Virus record (IMG/VR): IMGVR_UViG_3300025133_000724
Location: 1-20,910 of that record
Direction: 5' to 3' (one strand)
Length of the DNA stretch: 20,910 nucleotides
DNA from: a virus
Positions 3,023 to 20,319 of this stretch are shown in pieces. The notes beneath the pieces are model-generated. The model was not told where the DNA came from, did not search any database, and worked only from the letters and a program-made list of their open reading frames with translations. The stretch's first letter is position 1, and each line of letters opens with the position of its first letter. Position numbers and translations under genes: made by a program.

Positions 3023-4686
3023 TGGACAATCTAGAAACTCCTTTATTTGAGTCCTTAAATAAGGAACTGGCTTCTTTAAAAGATGCTAGACGGAATTGGG
3101 AAGAACAGTGGCAGGACATAGGTGATCTCATGTCTCCTAATCGTGGAGACTTTGTTGCCCTACGTTCTGCTGGTGAGAAGAAAAGAGAAAAGATCTTTGA
3201 TTCTACGCCTGTACGTGCATTAACCAGATTCTCATCTGCAATGCATAACCTTCTTACTCCTTCTGCACAACATTGGTTTGAGTTGGAACTCAAAAACCGT
3301 GCTTTAGGACAGGAACGTGATGTCAAACTCTGGCTGGAAGAAGTAACTAGAGTTGTTATGGACGGTTTTACAAGACCGAACAATAACTTCCATCCTAGTA
3401 TGCATGAGTATTTTCTGGACTTAGGAGCATTTGGTACTGGAGTTATGTTCATAAAAGATGTGCCAGGAGAAGGTCCATATTTCATGACATTCCCTTTATA
3501 TGACTGTTATCTTGCCAAGAATGAATCAGGACGAATAGATACTATATTCAGAGTTTATGAGCATACTGCAAAAGAACTCATGGAATCCTTTGGTGAAGAG
3601 AATATGCCTGAAAAGGTTCTTGCGACTAAAGAGAAGAATACAATCTATGACAAGTTCGCTTGCTGTCATGTAGTTAAACCTAATTACTCATTCAATCAAC
3701 CTCCACAGGATCAATTCAAGTTCACAAGCATCTACTTTATGCCTGATGAAAAGAAGATTCTGAGTGTTAGTGGTTTTAACGAATTTCCCTTTATATGCAG
3801 TCGTTGGGAAAGAAACAGCCTTGAAACATATGGAAGAGGTTGTGGTGGTGAAGCATTATCTGATACGAAGATGCTTAATGAGATGGAAAAGACTTATCTC
3901 AAAGCATTACAGAAGATGGTAGATCCTCCACTCATGGTTCCTGATGATGGTTTTATTAATCCAGTTCGTACTACTCCAGGTGGTTTAAATTACTACCGTA
4001 CAGGTCTAAGCAAAGATGAACGCATATTCCCTCTACCTGCAATGCAGAGATTGGATTATGCAGAGAACAAAATGAACAATGTCCGTACTGCAATAGAGAA
4101 GGCATTCTATTTGGATTTAGTGGAATTGCCTGGACCTACTGCACAAGATGGCGATGTTTTGAGGTTTACGGCAACAGAAATTCAAGCAAGACAAAGAGAT
4201 AGGATGCAGATCCTTGGTCCTTTAGTTTCAAGACAAGAGATTGAACTATTAGGGCCAATGATTGAAAGAACAGTGAATGTTATGATGGCAAATGGAATGT
4301 TGCCACCTGTACCTGAAGTCATGCAAGGTGTCCAAGAGTTCAAGATCGAGTACAAGAATCCTATATCTATTGCAATGAGAGGATATGAATTGAACAGTAT
4401 TTCTCAGTTGATTCAGTTCTTATCTCCACTTGCTCAAATAGATCCTACTGTAATGCAACGATTGGATATTACTAGAATTGCAAGAATAGGGGCCGATATC
4501 CTGAGAACACCTCCTTCTGTTGTTAAGGATGAACAGGAATTCCAGAAAGAAATGCAGGCACAACAAGAACAGCAGGCTATGATGTCTCAATTACAACAAG
4601 GGCAGTTGGTTGCTCAAACAGATGAAATATCTGCAAATGCAGAAAAGAACAGGGCGCAAGCGGCTCAAATTATTTCTGGTGGTTGA
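3022..4686 (+). CDS. Portal protein (head-tail connector, T7 gp8-like)
   Basis: This is the dodecameric portal at the capsid vertex through which DNA enters and leaves and onto which the tail is built. The length, 554 residues, matches T7 gp8 (about 536). It has the family's N-terminal pattern: an amphipathic helix with NWEEQWQDIGDLMSPNRGDF at residues 25-44, then a segment from DSTPVRAL (60-67) to NLLTPSAQHWFEL (76-88), which is typical of the podovirus head-to-tail connecting protein family. The C-terminus (about 505-554) is rich in Gln and Ala and likely helical, as expected for the portal barrel. The ATG overlaps the preceding stop by one base. The gene is followed at once by the Bbp19-like gene and then the scaffold gene, which is the usual procapsid gene order. 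Confidence 0.95.
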   Translation: MDNLETPLFESLNKELASLKDARRNWEEQWQDIGDLMSPNRGDFVALRSAGEKKREKIFDSTPVRALTRFSSAMHNLLTPSAQHWFELELKNRALGQERDVKLWLEEVTRVVMDGFTRPNNNFHPSMHEYFLDLGAFGTGVMFIKDVPGEGPYFMTFPLYDCYLAKNESGRIDTIFRVYEHTAKELMESFGEENMPEKVLATKEKNTIYDKFACCHVVKPNYSFNQPPQDQFKFTSIYFMPDEKKILSVSGFNEFPFICSRWERNSLETYGRGCGGEALSDTKMLNEMEKTYLKALQKMVDPPLMVPDDGFINPVRTTPGGLNYYRTGLSKDERIFPLPAMQRLDYAENKMNNVRTAIEKAFYLDLVELPGPTAQDGDVLRFTATEIQARQRDRMQILGPLVSRQEIELLGPMIERTVNVMMANGMLPPVPEVMQGVQEFKIEYKNPISIAMRGYELNSISQLIQFLSPLAQIDPTVMQRLDITRIARIGADILRTPPSVVKDEQEFQKEMQAQQEQQAMMSQLQQGQLVAQTDEISANAEKNRAQAAQIISGG

Positions 4687-4958
4687 TGTTAAATAAGAGG
4701 GAAAAACGTAGAAGAGCTACATATAAAGAAATCTTTTCTACTGAAGCAGGTAAAGAAGTTCTTGACGATTTAATGAAGTCGAACTATTTTTTTAACAGTA
4801 CACAAACAGGTGATTCTCACGAAACTGCTTTCAATGAGGGTCGTAGATCTGTTATCTTGGCTATATTGAATTACGTATCTCTTGATATTGAGAAGATACA
4901 ACAACGTATGAAGGATAGTTATGAGCGAGGAGGCGGTAGCGACTTCGACAACTTCTGA
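4686..4958 (+). CDS. Bbp19-like small phage protein
   Basis: A basic, helical protein of 90 residues. It has the pattern I associate with small Bbp19-like phage proteins found next to portal or scaffold genes: YKEIFSTEAGKEVLDDLM near residues 14-31, then ETAFNEGRRSVILAIL at about 47-62. The family's function is not known to me. I chose the ATG at 4686, which overlaps the portal stop as TGATG. A TTG one codon earlier (4683) is in frame but less likely. The last 38 bases overlap the scaffold gene in another frame, so translation of the two is probably coupled. Confidence 0.8.
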   Translation: MLNKREKRRRATYKEIFSTEAGKEVLDDLMKSNYFFNSTQTGDSHETAFNEGRRSVILAILNYVSLDIEKIQQRMKDSYERGGGSDFDNF

Positions 4959-5778
4959 TGCAGGAGAAAGCACAGGAACCGAAGGAGCATCAACTTTACT
5001 TGGTGGTGGTGAGGGCGCAGCCCAACAAGCATACGGTAATCAATTTGATTACTCTCAAATGCCTGATGGATTGGCACTTGAGCCATCTCTACAGAACTTT
5101 GATACTGTAGACAAGTTGGCTAAATCTTATGTCAATCTTGTTAAAAAGATGGGAGTTCCTGCTGAACAGTTATTACGAATGCCAGAAGCAGGACAACCTA
5201 TGGATGAGATCTACAATGCTCTAGGTAGACCTGAAAGCCATGAAAATTATGAACTAGGTGATTATGCTCCAGAGCAGACTGAAGACTTCAGAAATCTGGC
5301 ACATCAACTAGGTCTTAACAACGAGCAAGCACAACATCTCTATAATGCATATGTCGAGTCTATAGACGGAATGCAGAATCAAGATGCTCAAGCATTTGAG
5401 CAATTTGAAGTAGAGAACCTAAAGGCTCTTCAAACAGAATGGGGAGATAACTTTAACGGAAACCTTGAACTTGCACGTAGAGCTTTTATGAACTTTGCTA
5501 CTCCAGAAGCAGTAGAGGTCATAGAAAAGACAGGATTGGGTAATCACCCAGAAATCCTTAAAGTGTTCAGTCAAATTGGGTCTATGTTGCAGGAAGATTC
5601 TGTCCTGCCAGGATCTAGTCAGGCTGTATTAGGTGGGATGAATCCTGCCACTGCCCAACAATCTATCAATGAACGAATGTCTGATACTGAATTCCGTTCT
5701 GCATACTTGGATCAATATCATCCAAATCATGCAAACGCAGTTAAGGAGATGACAAAACTTCATGAGTATATTGGGTAA
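4921..5778 (+). CDS. Capsid assembly (scaffolding) protein, T7 gp9-like
   Basis: An acidic protein of 285 residues lying between portal and major capsid genes, as the scaffold does in T7-like phages (T7 gp9 is about 307). The scaffold drives capsid protein into a procapsid of the right size and leaves before DNA fills the head. Residues 1-40 are low complexity (Ser, Thr, Gly, Glu, Ala). The middle has LAKSYVNLVKKMGVP (about 61-75) followed by MPEAGQPMDEIYNALGRPES (about 82-101), a pattern typical of phage scaffolds. The rest is helical and rich in Glu and Gln, with a short C-terminal helix, AVKEMTKLHEYIG, as expected for capsid binding. The ATG at 4921 has AAGGA at 4911-4915 and lies inside the previous gene. 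Confidence 0.9.
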   Translation: MSEEAVATSTTSDAGESTGTEGASTLLGGGEGAAQQAYGNQFDYSQMPDGLALEPSLQNFDTVDKLAKSYVNLVKKMGVPAEQLLRMPEAGQPMDEIYNALGRPESHENYELGDYAPEQTEDFRNLAHQLGLNNEQAQHLYNAYVESIDGMQNQDAQAFEQFEVENLKALQTEWGDNFNGNLELARRAFMNFATPEAVEVIEKTGLGNHPEILKVFSQIGSMLQEDSVLPGSSQAVLGGMNPATAQQSINERMSDTEFRSAYLDQYHPNHANAVKEMTKLHEYIG

Positions 5779-5833
5779 TTCGGACCCTTTTGGATAATCC
5801 GTAGCATTTTAAACATATAACGAAAGCGGAACT
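5779..5833 (+). promoter_or_regulatory. Intergenic leader before the capsid gene, possible small hairpins
   Basis: This 55-base gap is the longest non-coding stretch in the window and lies directly upstream of the major capsid gene, where T7-like phages often place a strong late promoter. It holds two small competing inverted repeats. GGGT (5773-5776) can pair with ACCC (5784-5787), which is followed by four Ts. Alternatively CGGA (5781-5784) can pair with TCCG (5798-5801). Both stems are only four pairs, so they may be chance. The ribosome binding site is probably the AGCGGA near 5825. I see no convincing sigma-70 or T7-type promoter, so the regulatory call rests mostly on position. Confidence 0.25.
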
Positions 5834-6814
5834 ATGTCTGTACACGTAACTACTTCCTTTGTGAAGCAGTTTTCCGCAAATGTCCAACTTCTCGTCCAAC
5901 AGATGGGAAGTAGGCTACGGAATTCTGTAACACTGGAAACAGGAAAGGTCGGTGAAGAAGTCTTCATGGACCGTATTGAATCGGTAGCGGCACAACGAGT
6001 ATCTTCTCGTCATGCTGACTCACCGTTAATGAGTACTCCTCATGATCGTAGGAAAGTAACTCCTAACGATTTTGATTGGGGTGACATGATCGATAATCCT
6101 GATAAACTCAGGATGCTCATTGATCCTGCCTCTGCTTATTCCGCTAATGCGGCAATGGCAATGGGCAGAGCGCAAGATGAGACAATCATTAGTGCATTAG
6201 TTGGCAGTGCATATTCAGATGCTTCTGATGGTACTTCTAGTGCAAATACTGCTGTAACCCTACCTGCGGCTCAAAAAGTAGCAATTAATGATGTTACTTA
6301 TGAGGTTGATTCAGGATCAGGGAATCAAGGTCTTACTGTTGGCAAGCTTATTCATGCCAGAAAGATTCTTGGTGCTAATGATGCTGATGATTATGATGTA
6401 AATGGTAATAGCAATTTGTTCATAATTGTGAATTCTGCACAATTGAGTAATTTGCTTAAATCTACTAAAGTAAACAGTGCTGATTTCAATGAAATCCGAG
6501 CATTGGTTGCTGGTGATTTAAACCATTACATGGGTTTCAATATCATCAGAACTGAATTGATCCCAAGCATAAATGGTAGTCACAGTTCAGGTTCTTTCAC
6601 CTATGATCCTACTGCACAGGAAAATAGTGGTGATCCTGACCATTGTGTTGCCTTTCACCGCAGAGGTCTTGGCCTTTGTATTTGGGAAGACATCGTAGCT
6701 AGAATTTCTGAACGACCCGACAAGCGGTTTAGCCAGTACATCTATTACAGGATGACTATTGGTGCAACTCGCTTGGAAGAAAAGCGTGTCGTGCAGATTT
6801 CCTGCCTTCAATAA
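5834..6814 (+). CDS. Major capsid protein
   Basis: The shell subunit of the icosahedral head, 326 residues (T7 gp10A is about 344). The N-terminus reads SVHVTTSFVKQFSANVQLLVQQ and is followed by GSRLRNSVTLETGKVGEEVFMDRI. Then comes the SSRHADSPLMSTPHDRRKVTPNDFDWGDMIDNPDKLRMLIDPASAYSANAAMAMGRAQDE region in short blocks at about residues 57-115, a signature I recognise from podovirus HK97-fold capsid proteins. A Ser/Thr/Asp-rich insert (about 124-165) probably forms a surface loop. The C-terminus, with YYRMTIGATRLEEKRVVQI, is the typical final strand. It follows the scaffold gene after a 55-base leader and precedes a small virion protein with a good ribosome binding site. Both should be among the most highly expressed genes here. 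Confidence 0.94.
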   Translation: MSVHVTTSFVKQFSANVQLLVQQMGSRLRNSVTLETGKVGEEVFMDRIESVAAQRVSSRHADSPLMSTPHDRRKVTPNDFDWGDMIDNPDKLRMLIDPASAYSANAAMAMGRAQDETIISALVGSAYSDASDGTSSANTAVTLPAAQKVAINDVTYEVDSGSGNQGLTVGKLIHARKILGANDADDYDVNGNSNLFIIVNSAQLSNLLKSTKVNSADFNEIRALVAGDLNHYMGFNIIRTELIPSINGSHSSGSFTYDPTAQENSGDPDHCVAFHRRGLGLCIWEDIVARISERPDKRFSQYIYYRMTIGATRLEEKRVVQISCLQ

Positions 6815-6833
6815 TTAAGAAAGGAGATCTAAT

Positions 6834-7343
6834 ATGGCTACAACTTACGGAGTAAATAAGCGTAAGCAAATCGCATCCATCACGAATCCGAGGACAATGA
6901 CTAATGTTGCGGAACAAGGTGGACGAATGCGTGTTATGTATGACACATATGAAGCAGATGGGAATACTGCCACTGACAATACAGGTGCTAATGGTACAGT
7001 TGTTGTTATTGGCTCATTCCCTAAAGGTGTAAGAATCTGGAATGTCATGCTTCAAGCTGATGCTCTTGGTTCAAGTGTCACCTTGAGTGCTGGATATGCG
7101 GCTCATACTAACAGTGATACTGAAGCGGCAGTTTCACTTGACTTAGTTGCTTTTATAGCGGCTACAGCAATGAATACTGCTAAAAAAGCAATTCATTCTA
7201 GTTGGGGTCCACAGACTGCAACAAGTATTGACAATACAGGTTTTGAATGTGTTGATAAGAATGGAACTGACATCATTGTAGATATTGATGCGGCCCATGC
7301 TACTGGCACAATCAAGTCTGCTATTTTCTATACAATAGACTGA
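6834..7343 (+). CDS. Putative capsid-associated virion protein
   Basis: A 169-residue protein in the capsid block, between the major capsid gene and a terminator hairpin, with the best ribosome binding site in the area (AAGGAG at 6821-6826). The first 35 residues are basic (GVNKRKQIASITNPRTMTNVAEQGGRMR in short blocks). The rest looks beta-rich and hydrophobic/Thr/Ala-rich, with TVVVIGSFPKGVRIW (about 61-75), a strand-turn pattern to residue 105, and a C-terminal strand IKSAIFYTID. Its position and strong translation signal suggest a decoration, cement or minor head protein made in many copies. I recognise no specific family, so the role is inferred from context. There is no signal peptide or membrane segment. 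Confidence 0.75.
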   Translation: MATTYGVNKRKQIASITNPRTMTNVAEQGGRMRVMYDTYEADGNTATDNTGANGTVVVIGSFPKGVRIWNVMLQADALGSSVTLSAGYAAHTNSDTEAAVSLDLVAFIAATAMNTAKKAIHSSWGPQTATSIDNTGFECVDKNGTDIIVDIDAAHATGTIKSAIFYTID

Positions 7344-8066: not shown

Positions 8067-11000
8067 ATGACTCGTGCAACTTCAACTCAAACAAATTGGT
8101 TTGGTGGTCAGATAGCAGAGCAAAGGCATGGCTATGCATCTGATGAACTCTATTTCTCCTCATCTGCCTTATTAAAGAACTTAATTGTTCGACCTACAGG
8201 CAGTCTTACACGTAGACCAGGAACAAAATTCGTAGCTAGAACTGACTCTAATGCTCTCACATTAGGTTATGAAGGCAATACTGTCCGTTTAGTTCCTTTT
8301 GTGTTCGGACATGAAAGTGCAAGTAATTACGTTCTAGAGTTTGGCCATAGGTCTATGACTGTTACAGCATCTAGTGATTCTGGAATAAAGTTTACTACCA
8401 CATCAATACATGGGTTGATTGTTGGTGATATTGTAAATTTTAGTACGTCAAGCACTTTACCAAGTAACATATCAGCAAATACGGATTATTATGTTAGATC
8501 TGTTCCAAGTACGACTACTTTCAGGGTATCTGCATCTATGTCAGTAGAAACAGTTGGTGCTGTTGTAGCATATGGAGCTTCTCCTGGTTCTGGAGTTAGT
8601 TTCGATTTAGGTTATGTCAAATTTTATAAAGATGGAGCTGTTTTATCAGGAGAAACAAATAAAGGAACAGATCAGGACCATCTCCGATTGACAGGAAGTC
8701 CTTTTAATAGTGCTACTAAATTAAAGAATCTACAGTTTGTACAGTCTGCCGATATCATCTTTCTCGTTTCTCCAGATGTTAAACCCTATAAGATGTCTAG
8801 ATATTCTAATTCTAGTGATACTGCTGGCAGTTTTAGAACTAAAGATGGTGGAACTGTTACTACAGGATATAGATGGGTTTTAGAACCATTTGTTATTAAA
8901 GATGGCCCTTATCTAGAACAACAGGAAGATGAACGTAATGGCAATGAGGATGTAACTATTGATATAAGTAGTCCTAGTGATACACATACTGCAACAAGCG
9001 ATGGTACTGGATTTATAAATAAAAAATTCTTGGCTCCAAATAGTTCAACAGTTCAGGCAAAGATAGATAATGCTTGGTACGATACAACTGCTGGAGGTGC
9101 TACTGGAGTAGCAAATACAGATGCCAATGTTTCATATTTACAGTTAAAGAATCATGGCTTGAATGATGGGATGTTTATTACACTTACTGATGCGTCAGGT
9201 GGAACTGACCCTGTAAATGGTGATTATTATGTGGTCAATGCAACGGCTAATACGTTTAAATTGGCTGATGCTACAGATTTAACTCCAGAAGTATTTGATG
9301 TTGCTAATAAACCTAAAATCTATGCCCAATATTACCCTAAAGGTTCAACTTTACAGATAGATTCTAGTGCTGATCTCTTTTCTTCTGATGATGTTGGTCG
9401 GTTGATGCGTTTCAGTCCTTTTAAAAGAGATACGATTTATTGGGTTTATGGAGAAATAACTACTTACACAAGTGCAACTAGAGTTACTTTAACACTCAAG
9501 CAGGATTGTCCTGTATCAGATTCAAATGCTTTAACAACATGGAAACTAGGAGCATGGTATACAGGTAATTATCCTCATCATGTGGGCATATTCCAGCAAC
9601 GTATGGTCTTTGCCAGGAATTCTAAAGCTCCACAAACAGTTTGGTTTTCTGAAACAGGTTCTTTTGAACGCTTTTCTCCATCAGAACAAGAAGGTACTTC
9701 AACAGGTGCTACTGCAACAGGTTCTCAGATTGTAGGAGATCAGATTGTTCCATCTAATGGAATGACCTTTACCTTTGATTCAGGAACAATTGATGAGATT
9801 CAATGGCTTGTATCTCAAGAGAAGTTACTTGCTGGCTCAACAGGTGGAGTATATGCAGTTTATGGATCAGAACAGGATCTCACAATCACTCCTTTCAATT
9901 TTACGATTAAAAGGGAAGGTACACAGCCTGCACAAACAGGGGCTAATGCTGTTCCTTATGATAGTAATGCCCTTTATATCCAAGGAACTGGTAAGAAGGT
10001 AAGAGTTATAACTTTTGGGGATTCTGCTACTGGTGCTAAATCTGCTGATATCACATCTAGAGCAACAGATATATTGAACCAATCAGCAAAACAGGTGATT
10101 GAAACTGATATCCCTAATTTTGTCAGTTGGTTTAGAATGGGTGATGGAACAATAGTGGGATTAACATATATTCCTCAATTAGAGATTATTGCATGGCATA
10201 CGCATGAATTAGGAGGAAATTACAACTACTCAAGTACAAGAGAAGGTGATCCTACAGGTCATATGACTACAGATAAGGACCATGCTGTTGTTTTGGATAT
10301 GTGTACAATTCCTTCCAGTTCCAGAGATCAACTCTGGGTATTAGTACGTAGGACTGTTTCTGTTGCTGATACTGCACTTAATACTTTTACAGGAAGTGAT
10401 TCTTCTGGATCTTTATTATTCACTGATTCAGGGCATGGGCTTTTAACAGGTGAACAAATAGAAGTTTCTAATGCTGGTGGTGCATTGCCAGGAAATCTTG
10501 TGGCATCAACCACTTATTATGTGACTAAAGTTGATGATAATACTTTCACTGTTTCCACAACATCTACAGGTTCAGCAGTTGCTTATTCTAGTGCAGGCTC
10601 AGGAACGAATTCATGGTCCTATGCAGAACGTATTATAGAAACAGTAGAGATGATGGAAGATTGGATGTCTACTGAGTCTATATCTGACTCTAAATATCTT
10701 GATGGTCATGTTGTTGCGGAAAGTGCTGTTGATTTTTCTTCAGGAGCATTAACCCATTTACAGGCAGAAACAGTAGATATCCTTGGAGATGGTTCTGTTT
10801 TTGATAGTCAAATCGTGAATGCTAGTGGGACATTGAGTGATGACTTGACAACATCTCAAGGAACTTTAGTTGCAGGAATGGGGTATACATCTAGGCTTAT
10901 TACACTTCCTATAGCACAAGGTCCAGGAGGAACTATCCGTATTGGTAATATGAAACGTGTTCATAGAGGATGGGCAAAGCTTTTCAGAACACCTAATTTC

Positions 11001-11228
11001 AAGTATGCTATATATACTAACACGTTCTCGGATAGTGATTTGGCAGAATCAGTAACAAGAACCATTGCAGACTTATATGGAACAGCACCTACAATGTCTT
11101 CTGATACAAGAGAATTGATTCCATTAAGCCAAGGCTTTACTGATGGTCAATTCTTGATTCAACAGACAGATCCATTACCCTTGAATATTCTTGCTTTGGA
11201 ACTAGACTACGAAACTAATGATAACTGA
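8067..11228 (+). CDS. Tail tubular protein B (T7 gp12-like nozzle), with inserted modules
   Basis: The nozzle is the distal tail tube that carries the fibres and the DNA exit gate. The first 57 residues show the gp12-family signature NWFGGQIAEQRHGYASDELYF, split here as NWFGGQIAEQR and LLKNLIVRPTGSLTRRPGTKF. The core follows, with QTVWFSETGSFERFSPSE at about 523-540, TIDEIQWLVSQEKLLAGSTG at 574-593, and SNALYIQGTGKKVRVI at 633-648. At 1053 residues it is much longer than T7 gp12 (794). Part of the excess is explained by three diverged copies of a module marked by HGL, YYV and TF at about residues 105-168, 355-405 and 778-848. It starts just after the adaptor gene, has only a weak ribosome binding site, and overlaps the next gene by 11 bases. 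Confidence 0.92.
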   Translation: MTRATSTQTNWFGGQIAEQRHGYASDELYFSSSALLKNLIVRPTGSLTRRPGTKFVARTDSNALTLGYEGNTVRLVPFVFGHESASNYVLEFGHRSMTVTASSDSGIKFTTTSIHGLIVGDIVNFSTSSTLPSNISANTDYYVRSVPSTTTFRVSASMSVETVGAVVAYGASPGSGVSFDLGYVKFYKDGAVLSGETNKGTDQDHLRLTGSPFNSATKLKNLQFVQSADIIFLVSPDVKPYKMSRYSNSSDTAGSFRTKDGGTVTTGYRWVLEPFVIKDGPYLEQQEDERNGNEDVTIDISSPSDTHTATSDGTGFINKKFLAPNSSTVQAKIDNAWYDTTAGGATGVANTDANVSYLQLKNHGLNDGMFITLTDASGGTDPVNGDYYVVNATANTFKLADATDLTPEVFDVANKPKIYAQYYPKGSTLQIDSSADLFSSDDVGRLMRFSPFKRDTIYWVYGEITTYTSATRVTLTLKQDCPVSDSNALTTWKLGAWYTGNYPHHVGIFQQRMVFARNSKAPQTVWFSETGSFERFSPSEQEGTSTGATATGSQIVGDQIVPSNGMTFTFDSGTIDEIQWLVSQEKLLAGSTGGVYAVYGSEQDLTITPFNFTIKREGTQPAQTGANAVPYDSNALYIQGTGKKVRVITFGDSATGAKSADITSRATDILNQSAKQVIETDIPNFVSWFRMGDGTIVGLTYIPQLEIIAWHTHELGGNYNYSSTREGDPTGHMTTDKDHAVVLDMCTIPSSSRDQLWVLVRRTVSVADTALNTFTGSDSSGSLLFTDSGHGLLTGEQIEVSNAGGALPGNLVASTTYYVTKVDDNTFTVSTTSTGSAVAYSSAGSGTNSWSYAERIIETVEMMEDWMSTESISDSKYLDGHVVAESAVDFSSGALTHLQAETVDILGDGSVFDSQIVNASGTLSDDLTTSQGTLVAGMGYTSRLITLPIAQGPGGTIRIGNMKRVHRGWAKLFRTPNFKYAIYTNTFSDSDLAESVTRTIADLYGTAPTMSSDTRELIPLSQGFTDGQFLIQQTDPLPLNILALELDYETNDN
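8379..8570 (+). repeat. Nozzle module, copy 1 (HGL-YYV-TF)
   Basis: Protein-level repeat, residues 105-168 of the nozzle. The order of markers is: strand SGIKFTTTSIHGL with HGL at 115-117, VGDIVNF, a LPSNISANTDYYV block with YYV at 141-143, TTFRV with TF at 151-152, and a closing AVVAYG before SPGSGV. Similar beta-rich modules are widespread in phage tail proteins. It lies near the nozzle N-terminus, just after the signature segment. Confidence 0.75.
9129..9281 (+). repeat. Nozzle module, copy 2 (HGL-YYV-TF)
   Basis: Protein-level repeat, residues 355-405 of the nozzle: VSYLQLKNHGL with HGL at 363-365, a DGMFITLTDASGG strand-turn, DYYVV with YYV at 387-389, and NTFKLADA with TF at 396-397. 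It is the shortest copy and lacks the AY-x-SGSG close seen in copies 1 and 3. No obvious DNA-level identity to the other copies was seen, so the duplication, if real, is old. Confidence 0.7.
10398..10610 (+). repeat. Nozzle module, copy 3 (HGL-YYV-TF)
   Basis: Protein-level repeat, residues 778-848 of the nozzle: SGSLLFTDSGHGL with HGL at 790-792, TGEQIEV, then ALPGNLVASTTYYV with YYV at 817-819, DDNTFTVS with TF at 826-827, and SAVAYSSAGSGTNSW as the close. It is the best match to copy 1, sharing the LP-x-N turn before the YYV strand and the AVAY close. Confidence 0.75.
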
Positions 11229-11592: not shown

Positions 11593-12161
11593 TGGATAGA
11601 GAATTAGCAAGAAAGCAATTTTATGATCTTTCTGAGGAGTATGGAGTAGAACACACTTTCTCTTTTGATGAAGCATGGGATTTTGTTGAATATAAACAAC
11701 ATAAGAATTTATTGAATGAACCTAATGATTTTTTCCCTTCAAAATATACGAAAGAAGAATTCAGGGTAGGAATACAGGCATTAGAGAAAAAGATGTTGGA
11801 TCAACCTGATGTAATCACTCCTGAAAATAATCCTGATTTTAATCCTGTTAAGCATACATTCACTGAACATCAGTATGTTAGAGAGATATTTAATCCAGCA
11901 GGAGAGATGCTTGTTACTAAAATACATAAGGTTGAACATCCCTTTTTTTTATTACGTGGAGAGATGTCTATTCTTTCTGAAGAAGGTGAAACCCGTATAT
12001 CTGCACCTTATTATGGTGTAACACCAGTAGGGACAAAACGTGTGATATATGCTCATTCAGACTGCACTTTTGTTACTGTACATCCTACTTCATCTAAAGA
12101 TTTAAAAGAGATTGAGGAAGAATTGATAGCAAAAGATTTTAGCCAATTGGAGGTCATATGA
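11592..12161 (+). CDS. Cupin-domain phage structural-module protein
   Basis: A 189-residue protein that T7 lacks at this place. The N-terminal 80 residues are helical and acidic (SFDEAWDFVEYKQHKNLL at about 24-41). Residues 84-166 look like one cupin beta-barrel: YVREIFNPAGEMLV, then IHKVEHPFFLLRGEMSIL, then GVTPVGTKRVIYAHSDCTF and VTVHPT. Candidate metal ligands are His112, His116, Glu124 and His155. Cupins of this type occur near tail and internal-protein genes of other phages, but I know of no proven role. The ATG at 11592 overlaps the previous stop; an in-frame TTG at 11589 is less likely. An eight-T run at 11943-11950 is read through in frame. The gene ends in an ATGA overlap with the gp14-like gene. 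Confidence 0.82.
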   Translation: MDRELARKQFYDLSEEYGVEHTFSFDEAWDFVEYKQHKNLLNEPNDFFPSKYTKEEFRVGIQALEKKMLDQPDVITPENNPDFNPVKHTFTEHQYVREIFNPAGEMLVTKIHKVEHPFFLLRGEMSILSEEGETRISAPYYGVTPVGTKRVIYAHSDCTFVTVHPTSSKDLKEIEEELIAKDFSQLEVI

Positions 12162-12697
12162 GTTGGTGGGTTGCAGGTAGTATGATCGTAGGTGCTATTG
12201 GTTCAGGCATTGGTACTGATCGTTCTATAAATAGACAACGAGAACAGTTACGTGAAAAGGAAAGGGCTTTAAGGAAGCAAGCAATTCAAACTCGGAATGC
12301 ATATGAAACGAGACACATCCAAACAGAGAATATGCATAGTGATAAACTTGAAGCTTTAGAAAAGACTAAGATTTTTAATACTAACAAAGTTCTCTCTATG
12401 GCCGGTGGATCTGGTGCAAGAGTTGGAGAAGGAACAACTGCTCATGTTGTAGCATCTGAAAATGCTCGTGGGGAATTTGCATTGAATTCATATAGGAAAA
12501 AATCAGATTTTGAATTAGAGAATATACGTGAAAAAGGAGAAAATGAGCAAGCAAGATTTAATTCAATGGCAGATGAAGCAGATGATGCATATCAATATTT
12601 AACTGATAATGGTAAACAAATGGTATTTGAATCAATGCTTACTGGTGGTATGGGAGCTACTGGTTCAGGTGTTGCAATGAAATCAGCTTGGACGTAA
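12158..12697 (+). CDS. Internal virion protein B (T7 gp14-like)
   Basis: A 179-residue protein (T7 gp14 is 196) predicted to be part of the core that is ejected and helps cross the outer membrane. It has an N-terminal hydrophobic glycine-zipper segment, WWVAGSMIVGAIGSGIGT (residues 3-20), then a long charged coiled coil (about 22-75), then GSGARVGEGTTAHVVASENA (about 84-103) and a second helical part. A hydrophobic N-terminal segment followed by coiled coil and a SGxxVGxGT block is typical of gp14-like proteins. The start ATG overlaps the cupin stop as ATGA and has a GGAGG about six bases before it. The gp15-like gene follows. Confidence 0.85.
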   Translation: MSWWVAGSMIVGAIGSGIGTDRSINRQREQLREKERALRKQAIQTRNAYETRHIQTENMHSDKLEALEKTKIFNTNKVLSMAGGSGARVGEGTTAHVVASENARGEFALNSYRKKSDFELENIREKGENEQARFNSMADEADDAYQYLTDNGKQMVFESMLTGGMGATGSGVAMKSAWT

Positions 12698-15120: not shown

Positions 15121-16245
15121 GCTGAAGTAATAGTCCAAAGTCTACATGAAACATTTACTGGTACTGTTGTAAGAGAATGGGAAAAAGCAATAGATTTATA
15201 TAAAGAAGGAGGTGAAGGCTGGTCTAAGGCTACAGATAGACAAAAAGAATTAGTTAAGCAAACAGAATTTAAAGTTAAAACTATTGAAGATATCCAAACA
15301 GGTGGTAGTAATTACAACGCATATCTATATCCTTCTTCAGATGGCAAAGGTTTAACCTTTAAAATATATGGACTTGGAGAAAATACGTTTGATGTTAAAG
15401 GTTTTGAGCTTACTTCAATCAGTTCAGCCTATGTTATACCTTGGTCAAATGTTCAGAAAATGATGATTTCTCGTTCCATTCATTCTTATGCAGGGGATAT
15501 ATTAGAAAATTGGGAAAGTTTTAATATACTTGGAGGTGACTCTTATTTAGAGTCTATGATTGCTATGCGAGATGAATTTAGAAAAATATACATAGACCCT
15601 TCTACTGGAAAGCTTAAAAAGGATAATAAATTAAAAACAAGGCGTAGCGGAATTAATAATTTTTGGGCTGGAGAACCAACTAGACCTGAAACAGTTTTAG
15701 GATTCCTTTCTAGTTTCGCTTTGGATTGGAAAGGAAATTGGGAAAGGGTTGCTGAGTTATCTGGAGATACTCCATTTGTAGGAGCAACAGCAGAATTTAT
15801 GGCTAAACATTGGCCCACATGGTTGCAAACACCTGGATTTGAAGGTCAGGTTAGAACAAGAGGCCCATTTGAGTTTATGGAAGAAGTAAATCTTATAGAA
15901 AGTCTTTGGGGGTCAGGGTCAAGGATAGGTAAAATCGAATATGATTGGATTCAATCTGTATTTGGCGATATGCCATTAGATACTCCAGCTAGTGAAATAA
16001 GGAAAATATTAAAAAAAGAAATGGATAAACATGAATTAGATTTTAAAGAAATCCATGAAGATTTTCGTTTAAACTTGGAAATGATGGGTCAAAGTCTTAA
16101 TCAGGTTGCTAGAGGTGTAGGCAGAATGGGTGTCAATTTTAGAAGGAAAAAATTAGGAATACCAGATGAGCCTGAAGTTTTGAGGAAACAAAAAGAAGCT
16201 TTAGATTTTTCTGGAATTAGTGGCGATTTACCTAGTGCTTTATAA
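14539..16245 (+). CDS. Predicted internal/ejection protein, unknown
   Basis: A 568-residue protein whose start lies two bases after the previous stop, with GAAGG at 14525-14529. It has no recognised domain. Features visible: two Cys close together (CDGDQGC, residues 25-31); RPAVRALINNNMDPNPTSG at about 46-64, a loop pattern reminiscent of gp15-like proteins; a mixed middle rich in Asn, Ser and Tyr (150-300); an aromatic-rich region with WAGEP, ALDWKGNWER and HWPTWLQTPG at about 376-433; and a helical C-terminus. The position between a gp15-like gene and a membrane-active protein, and an overlap with the latter (TAATG), argue for a virion core protein. It may be the second half of a split gp15 equivalent, which is inference. 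Confidence 0.65.
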   Translation: MKEQDIEKSDSIPVFDKIEYLKFSCDGDQGCMDRKLRRATKLGLIRPAVRALINNNMDPNPTSGVVSPAIMDMLSDSMTIKASNTNLASYAQSKDLDIVDIREDAQEAKSLIDSTFELDPDLDIDLFEAIQYSMIQNKDGIKGEDWFKSVIEKQYHVVSNPANSSYNIPISIYNINNYTDANGNKMDLGFEKQDAEVIVQSLHETFTGTVVREWEKAIDLYKEGGEGWSKATDRQKELVKQTEFKVKTIEDIQTGGSNYNAYLYPSSDGKGLTFKIYGLGENTFDVKGFELTSISSAYVIPWSNVQKMMISRSIHSYAGDILENWESFNILGGDSYLESMIAMRDEFRKIYIDPSTGKLKKDNKLKTRRSGINNFWAGEPTRPETVLGFLSSFALDWKGNWERVAELSGDTPFVGATAEFMAKHWPTWLQTPGFEGQVRTRGPFEFMEEVNLIESLWGSGSRIGKIEYDWIQSVFGDMPLDTPASEIRKILKKEMDKHELDFKEIHEDFRLNLEMMGQSLNQVARGVGRMGVNFRRKKLGIPDEPEVLRKQKEALDFSGISGDLPSAL

Positions 16246-17600
16246 TGTTACTATCAAGAGATACTGATAATCCAGCTTTAATACAGAGTTATTTTGATAG
16301 CTATGTCCCATCTGCTGGAAGATTATTTTCAGAATCGATGAAGTTTGGTTTTAATACTTTATGGATGAATGAACTATTACAAGAATCTAGGTTTGATGAG
16401 GCGGCTAAAGAAAGACCAATAGATAAAACTGAATATAAAGATAGTAGATTTTATAGGGACGGAATAAATTGGTTTGATGGAATGACCTTGGGTCAAGCAG
16501 AGATAATGTCTGAGAATCATGATAGGAAGACATATTATGCTCAATTGACAAAGAATGTTAATATGTTCTCTGGATTAGGTTTAGTGAGTTTTGGCGGAAT
16601 GATGGCTGGTTCGTTACCTGATCCTTTGAATTTTGTCCCATTTTGGGGTATTGCTAAAAATGTTGTTCGTGCAAAAAAGATAGCAGGCTCTATTCAGAAA
16701 ATGAAAATGCTCCAAAGAGTTAAAGGTATTAATAAAGTAACTCCATCTTCTGAAGCTTTATATAGTATTGCTGATCCCATGTTTGGTGCTGGATTAGCTA
16801 CTTATTTTGTCCAAGATAAACGGATGAAGTTTCAGGAAGAATGGGACATGAAAATGGTAATGATGGATGCCTTGATTGCTGGAGGTTTAGGCTTTTCCAT
16901 GTGGAGCATTGGGAAAGTAGCAAGAAAATTAAAAAAGTCTCCTATAAATGAACGTATAGACAGGTCTGCAAGAGGATCGGAGCAAATAGAAGAAGCACCT
17001 TTTGGTGGTCCTAATTTGAAACCTGATGGAGGTGCTGGTGGGATGAATTATGCAATACCTGCAAGTCGTGGGATTAATACAAGTGTAGGAATAATCACTT
17101 TAAATGGTACTGTTAGTGTATCAGAGAGAATATATGCAGTAGTTGACAGCATTAATGTGAAAACATCAGAAGAATCTTTGATTGCAATTAATGAAGCACT
17201 TGATGTTATGAACGCTGAAGGCTTTGATGGTTTACATATTTCTGATAATCTAGATGCAAATCAATTGAATAATATTGTAGAGAATCTGGATATGACTTCA
17301 ATGAAACTTGAAACCAGACCAGATTCAAATGGACACACTATAGAAAGGATACAGGATGAAGCTAATTGGAATCATGTTAGAAGAGATCAGGAACCACTTG
17401 CAGACCCTGATCAAGAAGCTGAAATCGCTATGGCAAAAGATTCTCAAGCTGAAGCAGACTACAATGCTTCTTTTGAAACTGACGAAACTTTTACGACTAA
17501 TATGAATCGTATGTCTGAATCAGAAACTATTAGTGCAGATGCACAAAGGATACGAGATGGTGTTAACCAAGCGGCAAGTTGTGTGACGAAAAATGGCTAG
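16245..17600 (+). CDS. Predicted ejection protein with hydrophobic segments
   Basis: A 451-residue protein that overlaps the preceding gene by one base and the next by eight. Residues 107-134 form a hydrophobic Gly-rich stretch ending in AGSLPDPLNFVPF, a motif style (membrane segment then DPxN) that I associate with large podovirus internal proteins of the gp16 type. A second hydrophobic segment, MMDALIAGGLGFSMWSIG, lies at 206-223 and is followed by a Lys-rich run. The last 200 residues are acidic, rich in Asp, Asn, Glu and Gln, and poorly conserved in look. No transglycosylase motif is present. Together with the next gene it totals 1359 residues, close to T7 gp16 (1318), so the two may be a split gp16 counterpart. 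No slippery site was seen at the junction. Confidence 0.7.
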   Translation: MLLSRDTDNPALIQSYFDSYVPSAGRLFSESMKFGFNTLWMNELLQESRFDEAAKERPIDKTEYKDSRFYRDGINWFDGMTLGQAEIMSENHDRKTYYAQLTKNVNMFSGLGLVSFGGMMAGSLPDPLNFVPFWGIAKNVVRAKKIAGSIQKMKMLQRVKGINKVTPSSEALYSIADPMFGAGLATYFVQDKRMKFQEEWDMKMVMMDALIAGGLGFSMWSIGKVARKLKKSPINERIDRSARGSEQIEEAPFGGPNLKPDGGAGGMNYAIPASRGINTSVGIITLNGTVSVSERIYAVVDSINVKTSEESLIAINEALDVMNAEGFDGLHISDNLDANQLNNIVENLDMTSMKLETRPDSNGHTIERIQDEANWNHVRRDQEPLADPDQEAEIAMAKDSQAEADYNASFETDETFTTNMNRMSESETISADAQRIRDGVNQAASCVTKNG

Positions 17601-20319
17601 ATTTGATGTTTGTCATTCTGCGCTTGTAGAGAATCAGGGTTTTACTCCTGAAGAAGCACAGGCAATTTTAGATGAAATCCGTGCTGGTGGTAATCCAGAA
17701 CAGATTGCAAACAATGCCCAAAGGTATTCAGCAAGGCTTGATTTTGTACAGGAATCCAGAGCAGGAGCAGGAGAGAAACAGAAACAAGCTTATGCTACAG
17801 GTCATAAGTTTATATTCCAAGATGGAGATCCATCTAAGATTATGCGTAGATTCTTAGCATATCTTACAGGCTCAACTAGAGAAGGTTTTGGTATGTTGAA
17901 TTCCATTGCTTCTGAACAAATGGCTAGAGCAGATGGAATACATGGAAGACTGATCACAAGCTTTATGGACGAAACAGGTCTTTCCAAGTCTGAAATGAGA
18001 AGGCTTATAAGAAATAAAGAATTTGGTAAGGATGTTGTAAGAGAACTGTATCCATATGATGGAACACAGAAGCATGGGAATAAGGAAGCATTCACGTTAG
18101 CAAAACTTATAGCTGAAGAACAAAGGGTTGTAACAGCAAGAGCTAATAAGAATGGTGGTTCTGTCTGGTATGATCCTCAAGAAATCACTACAGAATTCCA
18201 TAACAGGGCTTTAATAAGGCAAGTGGATAAAGATGAATGGGTTCGTTTTGTAAGTGATCTAGTAGATAAAGATCGTATGTCTAAAGGTCCAGGTGGTTTC
18301 AAGAAGAAAACGCTGGAAGATATATATGAGCGATTAATAAAGAGTATGGATGATATTCAGGGCATTTCTGAAAAGTCTAGTTTAGGTGATATCATGGCTA
18401 AACAAAGCATGATCATCTTTGATAATCCAGATGCTTGGATGTCATATAATGCAAGATTTGGTCATGAAGATCCCTTAATGGCAATCATCCAGGGATTAGA
18501 AATCCAAAGCGATAGAGCAGTAATGTTGGGTCGTATGGGTCCAGATATAGATCAGACATTCAAGGCTTTATTTGAAGCAGTTAAAGATAAGACAGGTTCT
18601 AAGTTTGATGAGAATGCGATTACTGCAAGATGGAAGATACTTACAGGTGAAGCATACATTCCTGGCAATGTTTCATTACAAAGAATAATCACAGCTATCA
18701 ACAACTTTCATATATTCACAAAGTTAGGAATGGCAACGATTTCCAGCGTTTCGGATGTCTTTGCAACTGCACTAACAATGACTTATCAAGGCAAGGGTTT
18801 CATGTCTACTTATGAAACTGCTTTGAGAAACATTAAAAGAACTGCACTCAATGAACATGGATTAGCAGAAAAAGATCTCTTCCATTTTATGGGTTTAGGT
18901 GTAGATGGAATACTTGGATCAACGATAAATCGTTATGTCCCAATAGATTCTACATCAGGCAAAATGTCTCGTATGGCAGATGCAATGTTTCATTGGAATG
19001 GTCTGAATTGGTGGACTAATGCAGGTCGTGATGGATTTGCAAGAATGGCATCTGCATGGATGGCAGAACAAATAGGTAAATCTTTTGATGAATTAGATCC
19101 TTCATATCAACGTGTCTTATACCAATATGGAATAGATGGAGAAGATTGGGCAAAGCTGAATAAGGCAGGTGTTTTGGATATGAGGACAGCAGAAGCATTA
19201 AAGTCTGATGTACCTATTATATATAGAAAGAGTACCCATAAGAGAGGTGGACAATCTTATGGTGATCAGGTAATGGCTTATTATGATCCAAAGACAAATG
19301 AGATTATTATAGATCGTGATCTAGCTATGCAGAAGTTCAATGAGAAAGCATGGACTAAGCCAAAGGTTAAAGGTGTAAAGGCTCTGTCTGATGATAAGTT
19401 TAAAACGTATGATGAATGGGAACGATTTCTTATAGAGCATGAGAAGGCTCATACACGTTTACCTAAAGAAAAAGGAGAAGGTAAAGGGGCATATGAGCAA
19501 AGAATGAATGATGAAGCATTTGTTAAACTTGAAGAAATCAATCAAAACGTAGCTTCATACACGAATGAACAGTATGTTACGCCTGACCATATACGTAGAG
19601 TATTAGGTGATGAAGGGATGGATCTAGCTGATAAGCTTGAGGTTTTCTTTGTTAATGAGGCAAAAATTGCCGTTCCTGCTCCTGGCAAGAATGAACAGGC
19701 AATTATGATGCGTAATTTTAAAAGAGGTACGGTTCCTGGTGCATTGGCAGAAATGTTTTGGCTTTTCAGGAGTTTCGGATTAACTTTCCTAGTACAGCAG
19801 GGGCCTAGAGCTTTACAACAAGGTTCTCCTGCGTTATGGCATCTAGCACCAGCTATTGCTTTGGGATATGCTTCGATGTCAATTAAGGATATGATCAGAG
19901 GAAAGGAACCTAAAGATCCTACTGAAATAAAAACTATAACTGATTCTCTGATTCAATCAGGTGCGGCTGGAATTGTTGGTGATCTCGTATATGCAGAATT
20001 TACTAATTACCATAGGGATTTTTCAGACTTGGCTGTTGGAGCTTCTTCAAGTCTATTACCATGGAAAGATCCTCATACTTTATTCATGGGGCTTGTCGGA
20101 GACGAATCAGATGCCTCAAGAGCTTGGAAAGCCCTCAAGTCCAACACACCATATGCTAACTTATTTTTCTTAGAGCCTATTGTGAATTACGGATTGCTTT
20201 ACCCAATACAGGAACACGTAAATCCTGGCTATTTAGAACGTGCTGAAAGGGCAATTAAGAATCTTGAAGGGCAAGAGTATTACTTGAGTCCTAATTCTTT
20301 ATATGGAAGTACCCAATGA
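17593..20319 (+). CDS. Large polyvalent ejection protein with embedded HExxH domain
   Basis: The largest internal protein, 908 residues. The N-terminus has a Cys and a helical EEAQAILDEIR segment; residues 70-500 are mainly helical. The C-terminal third has a pattern I know from large podovirus virion proteins: KLEVFFVNEAKIAVPAPGKN (681-700), RGTVPGALAEMFWLFRSFG (711-729), a hydrophobic stretch at 751-764, NTPYANLFFLEPIVNYGLLY (851-870) and a final NPGYLERAERAIKN (877-890). Between about 540 and 660 lies an apparent insertion with HEKAH (616-620), which looks like a zinc-peptidase motif. The protein presumably enters the cell with the DNA. The start overlaps the preceding gene by eight bases, and the stop overlaps the fibre gene as ATGA. 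Exact role unknown. Confidence 0.78.
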   Translation: MARFDVCHSALVENQGFTPEEAQAILDEIRAGGNPEQIANNAQRYSARLDFVQESRAGAGEKQKQAYATGHKFIFQDGDPSKIMRRFLAYLTGSTREGFGMLNSIASEQMARADGIHGRLITSFMDETGLSKSEMRRLIRNKEFGKDVVRELYPYDGTQKHGNKEAFTLAKLIAEEQRVVTARANKNGGSVWYDPQEITTEFHNRALIRQVDKDEWVRFVSDLVDKDRMSKGPGGFKKKTLEDIYERLIKSMDDIQGISEKSSLGDIMAKQSMIIFDNPDAWMSYNARFGHEDPLMAIIQGLEIQSDRAVMLGRMGPDIDQTFKALFEAVKDKTGSKFDENAITARWKILTGEAYIPGNVSLQRIITAINNFHIFTKLGMATISSVSDVFATALTMTYQGKGFMSTYETALRNIKRTALNEHGLAEKDLFHFMGLGVDGILGSTINRYVPIDSTSGKMSRMADAMFHWNGLNWWTNAGRDGFARMASAWMAEQIGKSFDELDPSYQRVLYQYGIDGEDWAKLNKAGVLDMRTAEALKSDVPIIYRKSTHKRGGQSYGDQVMAYYDPKTNEIIIDRDLAMQKFNEKAWTKPKVKGVKALSDDKFKTYDEWERFLIEHEKAHTRLPKEKGEGKGAYEQRMNDEAFVKLEEINQNVASYTNEQYVTPDHIRRVLGDEGMDLADKLEVFFVNEAKIAVPAPGKNEQAIMMRNFKRGTVPGALAEMFWLFRSFGLTFLVQQGPRALQQGSPALWHLAPAIALGYASMSIKDMIRGKEPKDPTEIKTITDSLIQSGAAGIVGDLVYAEFTNYHRDFSDLAVGASSSLLPWKDPHTLFMGLVGDESDASRAWKALKSNTPYANLFFLEPIVNYGLLYPIQEHVNPGYLERAERAIKNLEGQEYYLSPNSLYGSTQ
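19210..19578 (+). other. Zincin-like domain inside the 908-residue protein
   Basis: Residues about 540-662. The order is: YRKSTHKRGG, then a strand pair MAYYDPKTNEIIIDRDLAM (561-579), KFNEKAWTKPKVKGVKAL, TYDEWERFLIEHEKAHTRL (605-623), and AYEQRMNDEAFVKLEEI (633-649). His616, Glu617 and His620 fit HExxH; Glu641 in NDEA is a plausible third ligand, as in other zincins where a downstream Glu lies in a helix. All key residues are present, so it could be active. It interrupts the helical virion protein between two conserved-looking parts. Confidence 0.6.

Follow-up and report, generated by a model that had tools for sequence, protein, structure and literature searches.

Ejection proteins of podoviruses build a conduit for DNA, and the enzyme named for one of them, T7 gp16 (phrog_342), is a transglycosylase. 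In T7, gp16-type proteins leave the head and span the periplasm, the inner membrane, and the cytoplasm, with the C-terminal part reaching furthest (PMC8954989). A different set of enzymes is associated with injected polyvalent proteins, in which several unrelated enzymatic domains reside in one polypeptide. Zincins are the commonest domain of these proteins, and either self-processing or cleavage of host proteins has been proposed as their role (Iyer et al., 2017, PMC5512222). Likewise, the virion RNA polymerase of phage N4, a very large ejected protein of a podovirus-type phage, contains an HExxH domain, C1 (PMC5512222; PMC12633501). A zincin in an ejected phage protein is therefore a known theme (Iyer et al., 2017; PMC12633501).

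The locus described here belongs to the same scaffold family as T7 gp16 and likewise has an enzyme-like domain riding on an ejection protein. However, the enzyme of T7 gp16 is a lytic transglycosylase at the N terminus, whereas here a zincin-like domain is inserted at other positions. Unlike the C1 domain of N4, which we compared by description rather than by sequence, it is joined to a gp16-type scaffold and not to an RNA polymerase. The family to which it belongs would extend the polyvalent-protein zincin theme (Iyer et al., 2017) to the T7/epsilon15-type ejectosome.

An insert in a gp16-like scaffold

The window, by which we mean the whole stretch of DNA analysed, is a 20.9-kb virus record. 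Its features that define the carrier protein are as follows.

16245-17600, plus strand: upstream internal-protein gene, 451 aa, with weak colinear similarity to the N-termini of gp16-like proteins (best E 0.008)
17593-20319, plus strand: ejection (internal virion) protein gene, 908 aa, matching phrog_684 and related by homology both to proteins of the epsilon15 gp17 type and to the C-terminal portion of T7 gp16-like proteins (phrog_342)
18457-19170, plus strand: scaffold N-module, residues 289-526, from an iterated profile search (E=2.9e-56 in the window), common to most carriers and to non-carriers
19195-19572, plus strand: zincin-like insert at residues ~535-660, which 20 phage homologues lack and which belongs to a portable family
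19624-20190, plus strand: scaffold C-module, residues 678-866, from an iterated profile search, with a membrane-helix-like stretch at 716-734

The 908-aa protein matches the PHROGs profile phrog_684 (virion structural protein) over residues 42-902 with E=2.4e-103. By tblastn it finds about 107 phage records at 20-30% identity, from phages of Pseudomonas, Vibrio, Pelagibacter, Salmonella, and Escherichia, epsilon15 among them. Both the match to the whole scaffold profile and a gp14-gp15-gp16 gene order place it among the phrog_684/gp16-like ejection proteins; the T7 gp14-like gene lies upstream at 12158-12697 and is recognised by phrog_805 and PF24072, both weakly. Judging from sequence similarity, the 451-aa neighbour and the 908-aa protein are possibly a gp16 split into two genes, with the neighbour as the N-terminal half.

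An alignment with 20 homologues, of which 18 come from annotated phages and two from unannotated records, showed that the protein has about 125 extra residues (~535-660). These are flanked by a conserved helix ending in ‘..YGIDGEDW’ and by a segment equivalent to ‘MTPDGVAD’. A first-pass annotation of this DNA had proposed an embedded HExxH domain at 19210-19578 (residues 540-662) and a comparison with homologues that lack it. Its interval brackets the insert almost exactly, and the comparison bears the proposal out, in that all 20 homologues are without these residues. It had also correctly located HEKAH at residues 616-620, which is the sole HExxH in the 908-aa protein; none of the 20 insert-lacking homologues has HExxH anywhere. 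Because HExxH arises in 2.3% of composition-preserving shuffles of the protein, the motif by itself is weak evidence, and it is conservation that makes it real.

Conservation of the inserted domain and its predicted metal site

Direct searches with the window insert alone returned no relatives, and degenerate DNA-pattern scans were needed to find the family. The first pattern, W..F(x)(x).HE..HT, matched 68 viral contigs, 66 of which encode a shared domain of the form ‘F..K.WT.PKVEGVKPLPED.FKTP.EW..FV..HE..HT...YENRIN.LAL’. Compared by blastp, the insert and the carriers are similar with E-values down to 1e-26 and identities up to about 50%, although the proteins otherwise differ in their surroundings, and the window scaffold gave only scattered weak matches to the same carriers. 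The insert is thus a portable, separable domain.

Since the first pattern fixes HExxH, a second pattern without it was used, which instead fixes W587, T588, P590, G594, V595, the P/A597 and L598 positions, F603, W609, and F612. Among the 104 stretches found in this way, HE..H is kept in 93 of the 103 measurable contigs other than the window, or in 48 of 53 clusters at 80% identity. Where the motif is lost, both histidines usually go together (KELNQK, KEANRN, REYKYN). The two scans together place the domain in more than 130 viral contigs. In an alignment of 58 sequences, W587, G594, F603, W609, F612, H616, E617, E635, and N639 are invariant, and A562, P590, V595, H620, and A642 are conserved at 90% or more. 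The codons for the histidines and glutamates of the site vary synonymously, and the median dN/dS among near pairs is 0.19 (a rough, ungapped estimate). The inserted domain is under purifying selection. It also looks viral, because scanning 84,980 prokaryotic genomes with a degenerate pattern turned up a single match. This match is to a phage contig that had been binned with a Rhodobiaceae MAG and on which gp15- and gp16-like genes occur in order.

AlphaFold modeling of residues 530-668 with the family alignment yielded a model (pLDDT 88.7, pTM 0.80) with strands at 542-544, 562-565, and 570-573, a helix at 575-583, an ordered loop without secondary structure, and helices at 606-622 and 631-659. 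The model of a second member (L134) has the same layout from the hairpin onward. The elements of the domain, in order, are listed below.

19276-19314, plus strand: predicted beta-hairpin, residues 562-574, with A562 nearly invariant and I571 and D574 conserved, accompanied by a third short strand at 542-544 (AlphaFold and alignment)
19342-19398, plus strand: ordered loop peculiar to this family, residues 584-602, reading K-x-WT-x-P-K-V-x-G-V-x-P-L-P, in which W587 and G594 are invariant
19408-19458, plus strand: predicted active-site helix, residues 606-622, with invariant W609, F612, H616, and E617 (AlphaFold)
19438-19452, plus strand: HEKAH, residues 616-620, presumed to supply two zinc ligands and the general base
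19483-19569, plus strand: predicted second helix, residues 631-659, bearing E635-x3-N639-x2-A642 (AlphaFold and alignment)
19495-19497, plus strand: codon of Glu635, the probable third zinc ligand, invariant in the alignment and paired by hhalign with the M78 ‘E..AN..A’ glutamate
19513-19515, plus strand: codon of Glu641, the ligand of the earlier proposal, in a variable column and probably not a ligand

The compact strand pair noted in the first-pass annotation corresponds to residues 562-565 and 570-573. The annotation had reasoned that a fold without a helix carrying both histidines would speak against a zincin, and the predicted helix 606-622 carries both. The arrangement expected of a gluzincin, with HExxH on one helix and a conserved downstream glutamate on the next, is therefore seen in the model and the alignment.

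The identity of that glutamate differs from what had been supposed. The annotation assigned the role to Glu641 in NDEA, which is present at that location, and asked whether it and the HExxH residues are conserved across homologues. His616, Glu617, and His620 indeed do not vary freely, but column 641 contains E in only four of 59 aligned sequences and L in 32, and this variability led us to reject Glu641 as the probable ligand. Because Glu635 is invariant while Glu641 varies, the third metal ligand is most likely Glu635 in the motif E-x3-N-x2-A. In the model, Glu641 would lie six residues beyond Glu635 on the second helix, and hence on another face of it. We infer that Zn is bound by His616, His620, and Glu635.

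Relation to known zincin families

No Pfam, PHROG, or NCBIfam model passes its cut-off for the inserted domain. Among 58 members, sub-cut-off Pfam contacts were with MPTase-PolyVal in six (best E 0.0057), M91 in three, and M78 in one (E 0.1); PF18818 does not match the window domain, and the curated Pfam scores of both PF18818 and PF06114 go unreached. A Foldseek search of solved structures with two models gave nothing significant. The top-ranked solved zincin was the minigluzincin proabylysin (4jiu), which is also a small peptidase with HExxH and a glutamate, but this match is not significant (E 0.95, TM 0.30). Ahead of the HExxH helix the model has three short strands, and its overall fold has no significant match in the PDB. 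Searches of PDB sequences found nothing with the single protein and nothing meaningful with the profile. A viral structure library returned phage proteins that are large and for the most part unnamed (best E 1.4e-7) and that are probably carriers of the same domain.

More distant relationships were assessed with hhalign against alignments that we built from members of PF18818, PF06114, PF06262, and PF10263. The probabilities were 68% for PF18818, 64-75% for PF06114, 20-23% for PF06262, and 18-20% for PF10263; the first two come close to the 78% obtained for PF18818 versus PF06114. Column-shuffled controls stayed below 1%, and a scaffold alignment gave 0.1-0.3%. Removing residues 584-599, which belong to the family loop, raised PF18818 from 68% to 88% and SprT to 56%, but the choice of this cut was made with the alignment already in view, so the rise is post hoc and supportive only. 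SprT and Zincin_1, at 18-23% with the loop in place, were rejected as closest relatives despite the post hoc value for SprT.

Proteins of the M78 family (ImmA/IrrE, PF06114) serve in cellular or prophage regulation and defence and are not known as ejection proteins. The window family nevertheless resembles them in having an HExxH helix followed by E-x3-(N/D)-x2-A on the next helix, and in the hhalign comparison E635-x3-N639-x2-A642 falls on the M78 ligand helix. In one subgroup (L104, L111, L131, L134) the sequence is E-N-H-A-N-x2-A, which is close to the M78 form. In contrast, M78 lacks the family loop at 584-602.

MPTase-PolyVal (PF18818, ArdC type) is also an HExxH zincin embedded in large proteins that accompany phage or plasmid DNA into the host, and it shares the order of a hairpin ‘A-x-Y ... 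I’, F-x5-(Y/W), and HExxH(-x)T. However, its ‘Y-A-x-EEL-x-AE’ ligand helix, seen as ‘EEL..AE’ in the aligned plasmid and genome members of PF18818, is replaced here by ‘Y-E-x3-N-x2-A’, and the window family has an extra invariant W-x2-P-x3-G loop. Nor does the carrier resemble the polyvalent proteins in combining several unrelated enzymatic domains: PHROGs and Pfam scans detect no second enzyme domain in the window protein, and in five other carriers no further enzyme domain exceeds the Pfam cut-off. One 54.8-kb viral contig (L163 and L073) encodes the new domain together with a separate, full ArdC-type MPTase-PolyVal protein, which is the sole PF18818 match over the cut-off in the carrier records.

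Taken alone, residues ~535-660 are very probably a zincin-type domain. Profile comparisons suggest that it is of the gluzincin type, yet outside PF18818 and PF06114 by their own cut-offs. Neither the family, with its W-x2-P-x3-G loop and Y-E-x3-N-x2-A helix, nor its repeated occurrence in gp16/phrog_684 ejection proteins was found in the protein-family libraries and papers that we searched (the alignments of Iyer's 12 MPTase clades aside).

Carriers and a proposed role at infection

Most of 14 carriers scanned against PHROGs match phrog_342 (T7 gp16-like), usually from profile position ~213-280 onward, so that the transglycosylase part of the profile is usually not covered. Two carriers match both phrog_342 and phrog_684, which links the scaffold seen in the window to the C-terminal region of gp16-like proteins. 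Using scaffold profiles iterated from residues 270-534 and 665-900 of the window protein, we distinguished a site A between the two scaffold modules (the window and about 20 clusters), a site B upstream of the first module (about 25 clusters), and other or unrecognised surroundings (about 30 clusters). On the domain tree, copies with the same site label tend to group together. The window domain adjoins L081, outside the main site-A clade, but separate acquisition of its insertion was not upheld, since a single site-A clade is not rejected (p-AU 0.24).

Several carriers (L141, L125, L124, L073) have tandem pairs in which one copy has HExxH and the other is dead, with the dead copy keeping parts of the W/F framework. 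In cultured phages, the sole trace found is a dead copy in pelagiphage Hodr (L162, OQ414635.1). It lies in a gp16-like protein of 1247 aa (3167-6910), annotated as hypothetical, and reads KKEVYRGV where HExxH would stand.

We favour, as somewhat better than an even prospect, the reading that the domain is an injected accessory zinc metallopeptidase, set in a T7 gp16/epsilon15 gp17-like scaffold, that cleaves a host protein early in infection. As is known for related families, Zn2+ would be held by His616, His620, and Glu635, and Glu617 would activate water. As a self-contained module set within a helical ejection scaffold, the domain would leave the virion together with that scaffold and could then cleave a host protein located in the envelope or the cytoplasm. 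We infer its entry into the cell with the DNA from membership in the gp16/phrog_684 family; the scaffold is gp16-type, and it is the C-terminal part of gp16 that the window protein represents. The protease reading of the first-pass annotation thus survives in part, with an embedded, independently evolving zincin-like domain whose histidines and glutamate are conserved on a predicted helix. Its third ligand is corrected to Glu635, and the candidate targets still include the envelope, host defence, and the core itself.

The main rival, which we regard as rather unlikely, is that the same zincin acts on the ejection proteins, in cis or among neighbours, during head maturation or ejection, as has been proposed for phage P1 DdrB. 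Autoproteolysis is discussed as a main role for zincins in injected proteins, and P1 DdrB is processed before packaging, although the zincin-bearing N4 vRNAP and ArdC/TraC1 are transferred unprocessed (PMC5512222). The domain is always found within large multi-part proteins, which favours self-processing, but its occurrence at different sites of the same scaffold and its absence from all 20 phage-collection relatives examined do not suggest a conserved maturation step. Together with the decay of copies beside live ones, this patchy distribution is more in keeping with an accessory effector than with a step that maturation requires. Dead copies also bear on a further proposal, that a former peptidase now serves as a structural or binding module and retains HExxH through constraints on the fold rather than for catalysis. 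Of 103 contigs, 10 have lost His at the site yet keep the domain, dead copies adjoin live ones, and Hodr has a dead copy only, so that the module can be kept for reasons other than catalysis. We nonetheless judge this improbable, given that 48 of 53 clusters retain an intact HE..H, that losses usually take both histidines as for an abandoned metal site, and that E617 and E635 have no obvious role in the fold.

Still less probable is that the domain is a cell-wall endopeptidase replacing the lytic transglycosylase of T7 gp16 for peptidoglycan crossing. The first-pass annotation saw no lytic transglycosylase in the internal proteins of the window, and Pfam agrees; the SLT domain (PF01464) is missing from all 36 carrier contigs, and carriers that match phrog_342 do so only from about position 213, past the transglycosylase part. 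However, 19 of the 21 relatives that do not carry the domain lack SLT as well. With 0/36 carriers versus 2/21 non-carriers no association is shown, and the hint that the zincin stands in for a missing transglycosylase has no support. The profile relatives M78 and MPTase-PolyVal are not known as wall enzymes, which likewise speaks against this role. Furthermore, the window copy resides in the C-terminal part of gp16, which reaches the inner membrane and cytoplasm in the T7 model (PMC8954989). A chance HExxH without a metal site, which the 2.3% shuffle frequency might invite, is contradicted by conservation, purifying selection, and profile similarity, and we consider it hardly credible.

If the domain is indeed an injected accessory peptidase, many environmental podoviruses would deliver a protease from a family nearly absent from cultured phages; that some of these phages deliver a protease while infecting is probable. 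A broader view, which we hold only tentatively, sees here a virus-specific family of injected zinc proteases. It would be a transferable cassette, borne by ejection proteins in uncultivated podoviruses, whose members cleave a host protein as soon as infection begins, and its adjoining live and dead copies and changes of site would record an arms race. The analysis offers four concrete residues to mutate (H616, E617, H620, and E635) and a signature for finding the family elsewhere.

Two minor observations concern protein size. The domain also occurs in very large viral open reading frames of 2100-3200 aa (L059, with 3219 aa, L100, L115, L116, and L134); a Pfam scan of L116 found no domain above cut-off. 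In the window itself, positions 8067-11228 encode a tail-tube/nozzle protein (phrog_376) of 1053 aa, compared to 712 positions in the profile, in which three segments resemble one another, ‘HGL..G..........YYV......tF.v’, near residues 115, 363, and 790.
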